64,000 nucleotides of DNA from Nitrospira defluvii (GTDB taxonomy: Bacteria > Nitrospirota > Nitrospiria > Nitrospirales > Nitrospiraceae). The notes beneath the pieces were generated by a model. That model saw only the letters and a program-made list of their open reading frames with translations. It had not been told where the DNA came from and made no database searches. How positions within the stretch are numbered: position 1 is the first letter of the stretch; every line of letters begins with the position of its first letter. The translations under genes were made by a program, and so were the position numbers. The stretch lies in NCBI GenBank assembly GCA_011525625.1, contig WYAX01000015.1, forward strand, positions 434,001 to 498,000. The letters run 5' to 3'. This document shows positions 33,260 to 37,455 of this stretch, in pieces.

Positions 33260-34111
33260 CTAAGTCGTCCACCAGGAGGCGACCGGGGGATGAGGCCGCG
33301 GTCGCAATGGCTGCGGATGGACCCAGTGGCCCTGTGAACGGAGCCCCGCACGACGACAATAGTCGGCCGCCACGTCCGTCTCCTCCAGGCCTTGATTGAC
33401 CATAAAAAAGGTGCCGTTCCTTGCAAGATTGCACGCGATGCGCAGAAAGAAGCGTTCCGGCGAGAAGAGCGTCAACGGCAGTCTCCAGGCCAGGACCGGC
33501 GCAGGTGTGACAAACGGAAACCATGCCGTGATCACATCGGCCTGTTCTTTCACCTCGCTGTAGTCGGCCACCACGAATGCAGTGTGCGGAAGGTCCGCAA
33601 TGTATCCGGCTGCGGCGTCATAACGGCTGTAGCCGGTGGGGTAGAGCCGAAATCCTTCCACATCGACGCCGGTCAGGGTGGACGGGCGAAAGAACGTGTG
33701 CAGGGCCCGGGCATACCAGAAATTGGCGCAGCCCACATCCGTCACACGGCCACCTTCGGGAATCGGGCGAGCCGTGGCGTTCCAGGCCTGGTCTAGCAGA
33801 TCGAGATAGGCATAGCTGGCCAGCGCGGTCTGGTGGCCATAGGAGGATTCGAAGCGGACGTCGTAACGAGTTCGTAGGCTGTGAACGCAGGCTGCTTGCC
33901 AGGATTCCAGACCGGCTAGATGCGTGGCCGGCACCTCGTGATACGGCTTCCTGGACCACCGGAGCCGCTCGGAAAGTCGGAACCAAAGCCCATGGTACAG
34001 GGACCGGCAGCGTTGTCCGAGCGAGCTGTGATGACTCGCCTGCGAACGGTCGGGTAGCCCTGCGGTCCGTCCGGTCGCTGAGTCGGATGCCGTCGCCGGT
34101 GTTGTGCCCAT
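33260..34111 (-). CDS. SAM-dependent methyltransferase-like protein next to the RiPP locus
   Basis: A 283-residue protein. The candidate SAM site is RVTDVGCANFWYARALHTFF near residue 130, followed by TGVDVEGFRLY. The rest (AFVVADYSEVKEQADVITAWFPF) fits a class I methyltransferase. The ATG at 34111 is preferred; the frame is open a further 309 bases upstream, but that part has poor composition and no ribosome-binding site. It is transcribed away from the cysteine-rich precursor gene across an 865-base gap. A link to the RiPP genes is inferred from position only. Confidence 0.6.
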   Translation of the reverse strand: MGTTPATASDSATGRTAGLPDRSQASHHSSLGQRCRSLYHGLWFRLSERLRWSRKPYHEVPATHLAGLESWQAACVHSLRTRYDVRFESSYGHQTALASYAYLDLLDQAWNATARPIPEGGRVTDVGCANFWYARALHTFFRPSTLTGVDVEGFRLYPTGYSRYDAAAGYIADLPHTAFVVADYSEVKEQADVITAWFPFVTPAPVLAWRLPLTLFSPERFFLRIACNLARNGTFFMVNQGLEETDVAADYCRRAGLRSQGHWVHPQPLRPRPHPPVASWWTT

Positions 34112-34474
34112 GATAGGAAAGTCTCCACCACCCTGCCGGCCTTGCCAATGAAAAATGAAAAGATCGCCGGGCTTGTTGACAGGGACGCACGAACCGGAGC
34201 AGGTGCTGAACCGGCAGACGCACGGCCTGTTGGAGGGACCGTCCGGGCCGACACGGTGGTGGCGGATGCTAGGCCGGTGTTCTTTGTGAAACGTCGCGCC
34301 GGTAATCCGGAACAGACCCACCTGCTTGATATTCGGTTTTGCGGACAGCGCATGACGGTAGGCGTCTTGGACGAATGCGTCCCGATGGGTTGAAATTCCG
34401 ACGACCTGATTCTGATTCACGCGTCAGACGGCCTGTCTCGATACAGGATGTGTCCCAATAATCTTGCCTTATAC

Positions 34475-34511
34475 GTATCTCGTCGGATACAGCGGGTATC
34501 GCCTTGGATAC
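34475..34511 (+). promoter_or_regulatory. Helically phased GTATC/GATAC box array
   Basis: GTATC at 34475-34479, GATAC at 34486-34490, GTATC at 34496-34500 and GATAC at 34507-34511. The start-to-start spacing is 11, 10 and 11 bases, one helical turn each, so all boxes face the same side of the DNA. Adjacent boxes form inverted repeats. The same GTATC-N6-GATAC pair lies before the O-methyltransferase promoter (1893-1908). A dimeric or oligomeric regulator site is inferred. Confidence 0.5.
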
Positions 34512-34771
34512 AGAGGATTTCCCTTCTGAGGCAGCTCAACTCGGTGAGCATCGACGCTCTCGTCGCTGTATACATGGTTGATCACTGGCATGGGCCGCGT
34601 TCTCCGTGGCCGGATACAAACTATCTAACGGAACACACCTTGCATTCAACATTGCAGAACACGTCGCATACGAAGGATGTCCGAACCTGGTGAACCGGTG
34701 GCCGGACAGGCACGGCGTGCGATGTTGTGAGTGCGCCTGTTGCGCGCTTCAATGTCATGGAGGTGTGAGCT

Positions 34772-34792
34772 ATGCCGAGGACCAATGTGTGA
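34772..34792 (+). other. Six-codon leader-peptide-like mini-ORF
   Basis: ATG at 34772 is preceded by GGAGG (34759-34763) with 8-base spacing and encodes MPRTNV before a TGA. A hairpin, ACGCCC (34811-34816) with GGGCGT (34820-34825), follows 18 bases later. This could be a translated leader before the precursor gene, or chance. Confidence 0.25.
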
Positions 34793-34976
34793 AAGCTCGT
34801 GGTCTTCTTCACGCCCCGTGGGCGTTTCGTCCTGTGTGGTCGTTGAAATGGACGAGACATCGTCGTGCTCCCACCATGAGGGCAGGAAGAGGATACAGGC
34901 GTGGCTTCGGGAGCGCTTGGCGAATGGCCGTGCAAATCGAATCGCGGCTACCTTCACGTTTCAAGAGGAGGTCTGT

Positions 34977-35342
34977 ATGCCTGACAAGCCTGTTCGCGCA
35001 ATTGATCCCGTTGGTCTGATCGCTCTTGCTAACGTACTCCGATTCCATGACAACCCGGACTGTTCGTGTCAACTGAAGTGTGTCTGTGACAACCAGTGCT
35101 CATGTGAATTGAAGTGCGTCTCGGAATGTTCATGTGAAACGAAGCCCGTCTTCTGTGATCTCAAGGATGGAACCAATATACTCGACTTGCTGTCCAATCC
35201 TGTCTTTCGAGAGGTCGTCAAAGAATTGGATGTCAACCGGATGAATACCATTCATGATTTTGTAGGGATTGTGGATGAGATACGTAAGAGGATGAATTTC
35301 GGTAAAACCACGACCCGCGGCACGAAAACCCCTAAGGCCTGA
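34977..35342 (+). CDS. Candidate RiPP precursor with cysteine-repeat core
   Basis: A 121-residue protein in three parts: a leader-like region (residues 1-28, VRAIDPVGLIALANVLRFHD), a core with ten cysteines in 32 residues (C29 to C60), and a helical, charged C-terminal part (61-121). The core is a short repeat: CSCQLKCVCDNQ, CSCELKCVSE, CSCETKPVFC. The next gene, 14 bases downstream, is a radical SAM/SPASM enzyme of the type that modifies such peptides. The cysteines could become thioethers or bind metal. AAGAGGAGG precedes the ATG. The extended C-terminal follower is unusual for a precursor, so a cysteine-rich protein modified in situ is also possible. Confidence 0.65.
   Translation: MPDKPVRAIDPVGLIALANVLRFHDNPDCSCQLKCVCDNQCSCELKCVSECSCETKPVFCDLKDGTNILDLLSNPVFREVVKELDVNRMNTIHDFVGIVDEIRKRMNFGKTTTRGTKTPKA
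35061..35156 (+). repeat. CSC[Q/E]xK cysteine repeat core
   Basis: Three consecutive in-frame units of 12, 10 and 10 codons. Each starts Cys-Ser-Cys, followed by an acidic or amide residue, a variable residue and Lys. The third unit replaces the fourth-position KC with KP and ends in Cys. At DNA level the repeats tgttcgtgtcaactgaagtg and the later tgctcatgtgaattgaagtg have diverged, so the pattern is kept mainly at protein level. Confidence 0.75.
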
Positions 35343-35356
35343 AACGAGGATCGACC

Positions 35357-36808
35357 ATGCCACAGACCTTACTCATGCCGAAAAAAGCCATGCGCGCCGG
35401 TAATCGCCCTGTGGAGCCATTCATCGAAGAACGTATCGAAGGAGCGGGAGAGACGTTCATGGTCTCATTTCTTGACGGGTACTTGTATTATGCGCCTCGC
35501 GCCAACGTCAGCATGATTCTTGACGAGTCCGGCGCCGCTACAGTCAGGAAATATTTTCGCCACGATCTCCTGCTGCCCCATGAACAATCGCTGATCGACA
35601 GCCTGGTCGGCCAGGGCGCGCTCCGGATTCCTGAGGAGCAGAACGAGATGCGTTCCAATGTGGAAACGTCCTGGTCCCCAACCAGTGTCACTTTCTCGAA
35701 CACTCAAAAGTGCACTCTGCGATGCAAGTACTGTTATGCCGAAGGAGGGCGGTTGGAGGACTTGGATATACCGTTGCCGGTCGCGAAGGCGGCCATCGAT
35801 TTAATCATGAAGCATGCCGTCGTCCGGCAGGCGAATCCGTCCGTCAGCTTTCTAGGGGAAGGCGAAGCCACGGCGAGTTGGAAGGTGTTTCAGAGTATCA
35901 TCGAATACTTCCAGGCACAGTGTGGACTGCATGGGTTCTCTCCCACTGTATCCCTGAGTACGAATGGCGTGTTTTCCCCGGCAAGGCTGGACTATATCGC
36001 AGAGAACTGCACCCACCTGACCTTCTCGTTAGACGGCGTGCGCGATGTGCACAACGAGAATCGGGTCTTGCCCAACGGTGGCGGGTCCTTCGATCGCATC
36101 GTCACCACCATGAAGGGGCTCGACGAGCGTGGAAAGAGTTACAACATCAGATCGACGGTGACGGTCGCAGGGTGTTACGCGCTGACAGAGTTTGTTCAGT
36201 TCGTCGGGGAGAATGTACAGTGTAAAAGTATCCATTTGGAGCCGGTATTTGACGCGACAGGAGTCACGAACCTCGCGGAAGAGATTGAGCGGATCGATGC
36301 TCACGCATTCGTGAAGAACTTTCGTGAGGCCAGACGTGTCGCCGCGGAGTTTGGGATCGAACTCTACTATTCCGGGGCCGCGTCCAAACATCGGGAAACC
36401 TTTTGCGGGGCCAGTAATGCGAGCACGTTCCTGGTCACCTCACGTGGAATCGTCACATCCTGCAACGAAGTTCTTCAACCTTCTGACCCAAGGGCACCGT
36501 TGTTTCAGTATGGCCAGTGGAATCAGGAGACTCGAGCGTTCGTCGTGGATCGGAATGCGATTGATCGACTTGGAAGACTCAACGTGCATGAAATGCCGAA
36601 GTGTCAGGGATGCATCGCCAAATACAATTGTGCCGGAGATTGCTACGCGAAGAGCGCATCGGTATCGGTGAGCGGCGAGCCGGCAGACGCAGGGTATACA
36701 GAACGCTGCCAGATAACCCGTGAATTGCTGAAGGATAACTTGCTTATCGGACTCATCTCACAATCCGCTGAAGGCGGCATGCTGGGGCAATCCTGCCGCT
36801 CTTGTTGA
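35357..36808 (+). CDS. Radical SAM/SPASM peptide-modifying enzyme
   Basis: A 483-residue enzyme. An N-terminal region of about 105 residues (FMVSFLDGYLYYAPRANVSM) resembles the peptide-recognition domains attached to RiPP maturases. The radical SAM core has the 4Fe-4S motif C119TLRC123KYC126. The C-terminal SPASM domain has further cysteines (FCGASNAS, SRGIVTSCNEV, KCQGCIAKYNCAGDCYAKS, ERC), able to hold two auxiliary clusters, and the protein ends in CRSC. Together with the cysteine-rich upstream gene, the likely reaction is thioether or other radical crosslinking of the peptide. The gene is 14 bases downstream of that gene, so they are one operon. Confidence 0.88.
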   Translation: MPQTLLMPKKAMRAGNRPVEPFIEERIEGAGETFMVSFLDGYLYYAPRANVSMILDESGAATVRKYFRHDLLLPHEQSLIDSLVGQGALRIPEEQNEMRSNVETSWSPTSVTFSNTQKCTLRCKYCYAEGGRLEDLDIPLPVAKAAIDLIMKHAVVRQANPSVSFLGEGEATASWKVFQSIIEYFQAQCGLHGFSPTVSLSTNGVFSPARLDYIAENCTHLTFSLDGVRDVHNENRVLPNGGGSFDRIVTTMKGLDERGKSYNIRSTVTVAGCYALTEFVQFVGENVQCKSIHLEPVFDATGVTNLAEEIERIDAHAFVKNFREARRVAAEFGIELYYSGAASKHRETFCGASNASTFLVTSRGIVTSCNEVLQPSDPRAPLFQYGQWNQETRAFVVDRNAIDRLGRLNVHEMPKCQGCIAKYNCAGDCYAKSASVSVSGEPADAGYTERCQITRELLKDNLLIGLISQSAEGGMLGQSCRSC

Positions 36809-36840
36809 AGCCGATAGAGGGGTGAGATGAGGGGCTTTCC

Positions 36841-37002
36841 ATGATTGCCACCTTCGGTATGGAACCGTGGGCCAAGCATGCAAACGATATAGATGGCCTG
36901 ACATGCATAGAATCTGATGTGGTTGGTGCCGATCGCGATGGCACAGGGGCGGTGGCATTCGCGTGGCCCAAGCTCGACGGAGAACTGCGGTCATCGAGGT
37001 GA
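36841..37002 (+). CDS. 53-residue ORF downstream of the radical SAM gene
   Basis: It begins MIATFGMEPWAKHANDIDG, continues LTCIESDVVGADRDGTGAV and ends in a short basic tail. AGGGG (36830-36834) lies 6 bases before the ATG, and the gene starts 32 bases after the radical SAM stop. The amino-acid composition looks like a real protein and codon third positions are mostly G or C. Its end overlaps the convergent acetyltransferase gene by 12 bases. It contains one cysteine and no recognised family motif. It could be an accessory protein or a second small substrate. Confidence 0.45.
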   Translation: MIATFGMEPWAKHANDIDGLTCIESDVVGADRDGTGAVAFAWPKLDGELRSSR

Positions 37003-37455
37003 CGCAGCCCTGACCGACTTCATGTCCCGCTCCATCTTCCGGTGCGGAATGCCGGCGTCCATAAAGGGCTCGCCGACCGTGTGGAATCCCGCTCGCTGAT
37101 AGAAACCGATCGCGTGGGTCTGAGCGGACAGGGTGACACGGGGGAGTCCTTGCCTCATCGCCAGATCGAGCAGCGTCTCAAGCAGCGCCCGTCCGATCCC
37201 ACGCCCGCGCCAGTCCTTGAGGACTGCCATGCGGCCGATCGTGCCGCTCGGTTGCATGCGTGCCGTGCCGATCGCTTCTCCGCGGTCATTCCACGCCAGC
37301 ACATGGGCGCAGGATGAGTCCAGCCCGTCCCACTCCAGTTCTACCGGCACGCCCTGTTCGTGGATGAACACCGTTTCGCGGATCACGCGGATGTCCGCTT
37401 TAGCTCCGTGCCATTCGACGAGGTCCACTCGCCTCTGTGCGCCCTGCTGCGTCAT
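36991..37455 (-). CDS. GNAT-family N-acetyltransferase
   Basis: A 154-residue acetyltransferase. The acetyl-CoA motif A is GRMAVLKDWRGRGIGRALLE (RGRGIGRA), and QTHAIGFYQRAGFHTVGE is the usual C-terminal part. The early IRETVFIHEQGVPVELEWDG is typical of ElaA/GNAT members. GGAGG precedes the ATG by 3-4 bases. It points toward the radical SAM gene, so it is probably not part of that operon. Confidence 0.88.
   Translation of the reverse strand: MTQQGAQRRVDLVEWHGAKADIRVIRETVFIHEQGVPVELEWDGLDSSCAHVLAWNDRGEAIGTARMQPSGTIGRMAVLKDWRGRGIGRALLETLLDLAMRQGLPRVTLSAQTHAIGFYQRAGFHTVGEPFMDAGIPHRKMERDMKSVRAASPR

Follow-up and report, generated by a model that had tools for sequence, protein, structure and literature searches.

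The window analysed here is the whole of a 64,000-nucleotide stretch of Nitrospira defluvii DNA (assembly GCA_011525625.1, contig WYAX01000015.1, positions 434,001 to 498,000 of the forward strand). It contains a pair of adjacent genes, the first encoding a small cysteine-rich protein, called here the precursor, and the second encoding a radical S-adenosylmethionine (SAM) enzyme with a SPASM domain. The features of the locus are listed below in window coordinates. RRE stands for RiPP recognition element, and RiPP for ribosomally synthesized and post-translationally modified peptide.

34965-34971, + strand: ribosome-binding site GAGGAGG of the precursor gene, read from the sequence; an AGGAGG-like site is likewise placed in most homologous loci.
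34977-35342, + strand: precursor (putative substrate) protein, 121 residues; kept directly 5' of the enzyme gene in 11 genomes, with 12 intact copies aligned (alignment A1).
34977-35060, + strand: precursor leader, residues 1-28 (MPDKPVRAIDPVGLIALANVL...); M1, R7, D10, G13, A16, A18, V20 and L21 are invariant in A1.
35061-35159, + strand: precursor core, residues 29-61, CSCQLK CVCDNQ CSCELK CVSE CSCETK PVF CD; C-x-C-[DENQ] in 43 of 43 cases in 12 precursors, and DNA repeats.
35160-35339, + strand: precursor follower, residues 62-121, with the pattern SNPxFRE-V ... D-x8-DF-x5-EIR; N74, P75, F77, R78, V81, D85, D94, F95, E101, I102 and R103 are invariant.
35357-36808, + strand: radical SAM/SPASM maturase, 483 residues; Pfam PF04055 above cutoff, and CteB as best solved relative by both sequence and fold.
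35426-35632, + strand: N-terminal RRE-like domain, residues ~24-92; bbb-aa order predicted with pLDDT about 57-82 over residues 21-90.
35711-35734, + strand: radical SAM motif CxxxCxxC (C119, C123, C126), invariant in alignment A2.
36404-36709, + strand: SPASM domain with seven cysteines (C350, C369, C416, C419, C425, C429, C451), invariant in A2 and in alignment A3, and aligned to CteB.
34025-37029, no strand: acquired segment, not homologous to the syntenic interval of genome G027 (about 265 bp there); the flanks match at 82-92%.

The precursor translates from its open reading frame (ORF) as MPDKPVRAIDPVGLIALANVLRFHDNPD-CSCQLKCVCDNQCSCELKCVSECSCETKPVFCD-LKDGTNILDLLSNPVFREVVKELDVNRMNTIHDFVGIVDEIRKRMNFGKTTTRGTKTPKA. 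Its ten cysteines are residues 29, 31, 35, 37, 41, 43, 47, 51, 53 and 60, a span of 32 residues, and 14 bp separate its end from the ATG of the enzyme. The protein length, the ten cysteines within 32 residues and the 14-bp gap agree exactly with an earlier reading of the DNA (the original prediction), which had proposed a candidate new RiPP locus here. The choice of precursor ATG is backed by the GAGGAGG site and by the MPDKPVR start, which is kept in homologues. In the DNA of the core a 25-nt repeat recurs at spacings of 36 and 30 nt. The CxxxCxxC motif and the SPASM region attributed to the enzyme are likewise present, the latter as C350-x13-G-x4-C369, C416-x2-C-x5-C-x3-C429 and C451; all of these cysteines, including the radical SAM ones, align with CteB.

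The gene pair is rare but tightly kept together. A close form of the enzyme occurs in 10 of the 235 genomes of the order: besides the genome of the window there are nine relatives, with enzymes about 65-78% identical to its own; an eleventh genome, G205, has a distant enzyme that is 33% identical. A scan of 84,980 species genomes, which used short exact peptide patterns and detects close relatives only, added a single case, a metagenome-assembled genome (MAG) of Candidatus Scalindua (Planctomycetota) with an enzyme 70% identical. The original prediction had suggested checking whether the pair is conserved, and the precursor adjoins the enzyme, directly upstream, in all 11 genomes with the close form (ten Nitrospirota and one Candidatus Scalindua, hence two phyla). 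Two of the 11 have two precursors in tandem. A precursor profile matched 6 of 395 Nitrospirota genomes, each of which also bears the enzyme, and in that search the precursor was never found without it. Searches of plasmids and of viral sequences gave no homologues of the precursor. Some copies are irregular: the precursor of L005, a low-coverage MAG, has a one-base frameshift in its leader; G224 has a second, fragmentary copy; and the Scalindua enzyme (L006, 8001) has ACG rather than ATG at the conserved start, leaving its start codon uncertain.

In the 12 intact precursors D, E, N or Q comes straight after each CxC (43 of 43 occurrences, and 19 of 19 distinct hexamers). The background frequency of these four residues is 0.17, and in other local proteins only 1 CxC of 12 has one of them next; a p-value for the enrichment is a guide only, because the 12 precursor rows are related. 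The core of L004 is the most regular, with four perfect hexads (CSCELK CVCDGK CSCELK CVCDLK). The ends of the precursor are conserved in A1, and the core length and number of units vary among genera. In three lineages the second cysteine of a unit is replaced, giving CVSE (window), CPYD (L012 and L013) and CPNQ (L015). Because D, E or Q persists at +3 from the first cysteine in these units, the alignment favours the first cysteine and the fourth residue as the bond partners. Within one genus the core has zero nonsynonymous changes against 57 synonymous differences, pooled over pairs that are not independent, while the C-terminal tail of the precursor is less constrained (ratio 0.58 in the same comparison). 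It is concluded that the core is under purifying selection, and that the precursor ORF and the enzyme ORF are not chance, given that the pair is kept in 11 of 11 genomes and the core is without amino-acid change in one genus.

An all-against-all comparison of about 8-24 kb around the loci found only these two genes to be common to unrelated contexts. The original prediction had remarked on the lack of an adjacent protease or exporter gene, and this holds for the whole family. In G027, which belongs to the same genus, the pair is missing and the order of kinase-like gene, glycosyl hydrolase, small ORF, methyltransferase, GNAT, UspA and RND efflux genes is intact: about 3.0 kb of the window (34025-37029) stands against about 265 bp there, with flanking identity of 82-92% on both sides. 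Because the site is empty in a relative, the two genes form a transferable two-gene cassette, and because the methyltransferase and GNAT genes are part of the intact order without the pair, they are bystanders. The GC contents of the precursor and enzyme genes are 0.48 and 0.55, compared with 0.61-0.64 for flanking genes. The sparse distribution points to horizontal transfer of the pair.

Profile searches place the enzyme in no described RiPP family. The general radical SAM model PF04055 is its only match above cutoff. The best NCBIfam match is the PapB model (NF047865), at 114.5 bits against a cutoff of 340, followed by the SCIFF maturase model TIGR03974 (108.5 against 425) and, lower in the ranking, QhpD (77.8 against 453, with no dehydrogenase genes conserved nearby). 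The other NCBIfam models for radical SAM enzymes of cysteine-rich peptides are also below cutoff (CcpM 71.5/500, CefB 67.7/600, CXXX-repeat 67.7/350, TIGR04463 53.2/525 bits), as is the sulfatase-maturase model (57.5 bits against 349). No family fitting the pair was found in NCBIfam, Pfam, PHROG or PADLOC, and no profile claims the precursor, in agreement with the misfit to known RiPP families that had been suspected from the sequence. Neither this outcome nor the adjacency of precursor and enzyme in related genomes refutes the original prediction. The best solved relative by sequence is CteB, all seven of whose SPASM cysteines are conserved in the enzyme.

AlphaFold was used to predict the structure of the enzyme from 12 aligned sequences, a single-sequence model having been discarded as unusable (pLDDT 43). 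The resulting model is moderate in confidence (mean pLDDT 67.8, pTM 0.69). Foldseek placed it closest to CteB (5why_B, E 8e-18), and VIA-align gave CteB 5why_A a Z of 22.9 and an rmsd of 4.6 over 385 aligned residues, covering model residues 30-464; anSME and ChlB structures come close to this (Z 20-21). The N-terminal bbb-aa domain, called recognition-like in the original prediction, is consistent with an RRE because the superposition on CteB covers it, at moderate model confidence. The pair shows two general traits of RiPP systems, a small precursor gene kept beside an enzyme of the peptide-modifying type, and a variable, repetitive core between a leader and a follower. Of the traits of ranthipeptides in the functional sense, a SPASM maturase with an RRE is supported by the SPASM cysteines aligned to CteB and by a domain that the model suggests is RRE-like; the non-alpha thioether is predicted from the motif and from relatives.

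The enzyme almost certainly modifies the precursor. Beyond this, we infer the use of the RRE, the chemistry, the assignment of donor and acceptor, the number of crosslinks, any cleavage, and the fate and function of the product. The maturase CteB has an RRE and forms thioethers, and its SPASM cluster has an open site for a substrate cysteine (PMC8326336). PapB, which accepts CX0-6D spacings, joins cysteine to C-beta of Asp or C-gamma of Glu (PMC9413430); the acceptors of QhpD are Asp or Glu and that of the NxxcA enzyme is Asn (PMC8326336). Because of the open-site SPASM cluster of CteB, and because PapB, QhpD and the NxxcA enzyme accept Asp, Glu and Asn, the formation of non-alpha thioethers at the CxCZ units (Z being D, E, N or Q) is the parsimonious inference. 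We give a probability of about 60% to the reading that the pair is a substrate-maturase cassette, in which the precursor is bound by an RRE-like domain and acquires ranthipeptide-type thioethers from cysteine to Asp, Asn, Glu or Gln side chains.

On this reading, C-x-C-[D/E/N/Q]-x-x units are repeated in the core of the precursor, between its leader and its long follower. The N-terminal RRE-like domain of the enzyme would bind the leader and possibly also the follower. The radical SAM cluster would generate a 5'-deoxyadenosyl radical, which would abstract hydrogen from the fourth residue of a unit, at the carbon adjoining its side-chain carbonyl (C-beta in Asp and Asn, C-gamma in Glu and Gln). 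The thiolate of a core cysteine, bound at the open site of an auxiliary SPASM cluster like that of CteB, would then bond to this acceptor carbon; each resulting non-alpha (ranthipeptide-type) thioether would lower the mass by 2 Da. Within each unit the first cysteine would be the likeliest donor (CX2Z), leaving the second for disulfides or metal. Because the pair is not accompanied by a protease or exporter gene, the product may remain joined to the follower, or may be processed by general machinery.

Several points weigh against this. The reading is built on genes and a motif, and both the product and the bond are predictions. The enzyme falls short of the PapB family by its score, and its predicted structure is of moderate confidence only. 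PapA has a CX3D spacing, not the CX2Z or C-Z found here, and Gln is absent among the acceptor examples in the cited papers. CxC is also a common metal-binding motif, and the lack of a linked protease or transporter is unusual for a secreted RiPP.

Distant relatives of the enzyme (about 24-33% identity) also adjoin CxC proteins. The neighbours in G205, G364 and Candidatus Chlorohelix are WD40 proteins that carry a Tat-like signal and have tails of the type LPCGSPIPPGAVCTCNCVPG...YCTCDLICTCNTVCTCQS. On a Caballeronia plasmid the neighbour is a short CxC protein with a Tat signal, and on a Methylocystis plasmid it is a 128-residue peptide with nine CxC. Among the 395 Nitrospirota genomes, a DNA pattern of three hexads matched full-length proteins that are not of low complexity at two sites only, each next to the enzyme: the present locus and the two WD40 genes of G364. 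In viral contigs, 10 of the 120 pattern loci have a full-length hexad ORF that is not of low complexity. A radical SAM gene matching the A3 profile flanks 5 of these 10, versus 3 of the other 110 (Fisher p = 7e-5, in an internal comparison of the 120 loci with ORF criteria set post hoc). Two of the proteins, in L128 and L130, match PHROG virion or tail-fibre families, and in them CxCNSDCACNxVCxCN lies just ahead of an SDxxLK segment, which we take to resemble an S74 chaperone domain. In Campylobacter phages the cysteine-rich CPT_0180 family and a radical SAM gene occur in the same 15 records, which come from close relatives and count as one event. In a tree of the enzymes, the bacterial CxCZ-associated ones lie on one side and the phage ones on the other with CteB, with weak support and long branches. 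Because the tree does not unite the CxCZ-associated enzymes in one clade, the shared motif may be ancestral or convergent. We suggest tentatively, at somewhat less than even odds, that C-x-C-[D/E/N/Q] is a general code for radical SAM crosslinking across small peptides, Tat-signal WD40 tails, and phage tail fibres and structural proteins, that is, a protein-hardening modification and not one RiPP class.

Individual loci of this kind are varied. Tail-fibre-like proteins with four CxC[DN] units directly adjoin a radical SAM gene in L128 (8089-8799), L130 (2310-3134, minus strand), L179 (590-1417, minus strand) and L186 (888-1676). In the first three the units sit just before the SDxxLK segment, and the L186 protein ends soon after them; all four are possible phage fibres crosslinked by radical SAM enzymes. 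Campylobacter phage CP220 (L219 1161-2765 and 4971-6140; CPT_0180 and CPT_0184) encodes a 534-residue protein with 19 CxC[DENQ], in CTCDCNY repeats, 2.2 kb upstream of the radical SAM gene. L111 (3863-13367) and L058 (744-1823), from contig IMGVR_UViG_3300035505_000313, have successive large ORFs with dozens of CxC[DNE]xR(T) repeats, and the contig also bears a radical SAM gene. Proteins with 76-82 cysteines are found in viral L042 (40-2601), the first with a long N-terminal region that is not cysteine-rich, and a 292-residue protein in L061 (8778-9656) has similar repeats (CxxC repeats such as CDSCQTACYTGQC); these adjoin SPASM radical SAM genes bearing such motifs in their own N-termini. In L067 (3498-3998), in an apparent tail or baseplate region, a 166-residue phage protein with CTCNQV/CTCDQQ hexads lies directly 5' of a radical SAM gene. 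A recurrent 128-residue viral protein ending NCNCNCACNCNCACNCNC occurs in L169 (5377-5760), L121 and several other viral loci, at one of which the nearby radical SAM gene is cut by the end of the locus. Tat-signal proteins, mostly WD40, with tails LPCGSPIPPGAVCTCNCVPG...CTCDLICTCNTVCTCQS lie by SPASM radical SAM genes in L027 (234-2757), L052 (1432-5376), L016 (5-1423, minus strand) and L041, where the WD40 ORF adjoins the enzyme and the tail is putative. They span at least two phyla and are unnamed in NCBIfam.

The alternative that survives best, and which we regard as plausible if short of an even chance, is that the cysteine-rich protein is left uncleaved and serves, crosslinked and stable, as a protein or enzyme subunit in its own right, like QhpC in quinohemoprotein amine dehydrogenase. 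The chemistry proposed above applies here too; what differs is the fate of the product. The long, conserved follower and the lack of a linked protease or exporter agree with this alternative, as do the full-length proteins that carry the motif as a tail beside related enzymes; however, no partner enzyme subunits are conserved nearby, and the QhpD score makes a subunit of the QhpC type less attractive. We consider it unlikely that the same substrate-maturase pair performs other chemistry, such as sactipeptide-type C-alpha thioethers, conversion of cysteine to formylglycine as in anSME, or another carbon modification at CxCZ. SPASM radical SAM enzymes perform all these reactions, and anSME and ChlB score close to CteB by fold, but the strict D/E/N/Q at position 4 suits an acceptor beside a side-chain carbonyl and not C-alpha, the best sequence relatives form non-alpha thioethers, and the low sulfatase-maturase score speaks against formylglycine. 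Improbable, finally, is a metallothionein-like metal binder, whose metal site the enzyme alters and for which crosslinking is not the main purpose: the CxC and CC motifs (CGCNPMCGCESKPGCCEDKCECERK in L014) resemble metallothioneins and the window has, 2 kb downstream, an RND operon for heavy-metal efflux, but the operon and UspA are native synteny around the empty site of G027 and unlinked to the pair elsewhere, a D/E/N/Q behind each CxC is no requirement for a metallothionein, and C-x-C-[DENQ] is also found in phage tail fibres.

Two neighbours named in the original prediction exist as described and have no part in the system. The divergent 386-residue methyltransferase-like ORF is a real gene and common in Nitrospira, being present in 27 of the 61 genomes searched. 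Its true start is probably internal, since in relatives the good matches start at residue ~65-137. It was rejected as a tailoring enzyme because it occurs in Nitrospira without the pair and in the native synteny around the empty site. The 53-residue ORF was rejected as a second precursor, having a homologue in none of 60 relatives; it overlaps the end of the GNAT gene and is probably a chance ORF. A linkage of the pair to metal efflux was also set aside, the RND association not being conserved at other loci, and so was a role in defence, for which the radical SAM core gave weak viperin matches only.

If the chemistry is confirmed, Nitrospira-type and anammox bacteria, for which no described radical SAM peptide came up in our literature searches, would have a compact and mobile system for making thioethers whose substrate code is clear. 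The open literature gave nothing relevant on the gene pair, on Nitrospira ranthipeptides, on WD40/Tat radical SAM substrates or on phage tail-fibre thioethers. The C-x-C-[DENQ] motif is a handle for substrates of orphan SPASM enzymes, and led to phage tail fibres beside such enzymes; radical crosslinking of tail fibres, if true, would be a new means of stabilising virus particles.

Among known systems, the SCIFF peptides and CteB (TIGR03974) offer the closest solved structure by sequence and fold, with an RRE plus SPASM and the same seven SPASM cysteines. To our knowledge, SCIFF peptides have neither CxCZ repeats nor a follower like that of the precursor. They are further set apart by the score of 108.5 against 425 bits and by the acceptor of CteA, which is Thr (PMC8326336). 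QhpC/QhpD resembles the pair in forming thioethers from cysteine to Asp or Glu on a longer protein, and differs in its score (77.8 against 453 bits) and its dehydrogenase genes, which are not nearby here. The NxxcA-type ranthipeptide of Streptococcus shares Asn as thioether partner (PMC8326336), but has a single link with Asn upstream of the cysteine, whereas here D/E/N/Q come after the cysteine pair. Clusters 59 and 115 of a 2022 SPASM survey (PMC9062424) also repeat cysteine beside an acidic residue, and cluster 59 is a short cassette; going by the survey's description alone they have Asp-Cys repeats and other neighbours, and they may be the same family. The freyrasin (PapA-PapB) ranthipeptides (NF047865) are alike in their repeated motif of cysteine and acidic residue, their SPASM maturase and their place as top NCBIfam match; they are unlike in that the motif here is C-x-C-Z and not CX3D, the fourth residue can be Asn or Gln, the follower is long, and the score is 114.5 against 340 bits. 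It is concluded that the precursor family and the enzyme subfamily are new to the profile libraries searched, and that the expected chemistry is of a known kind.

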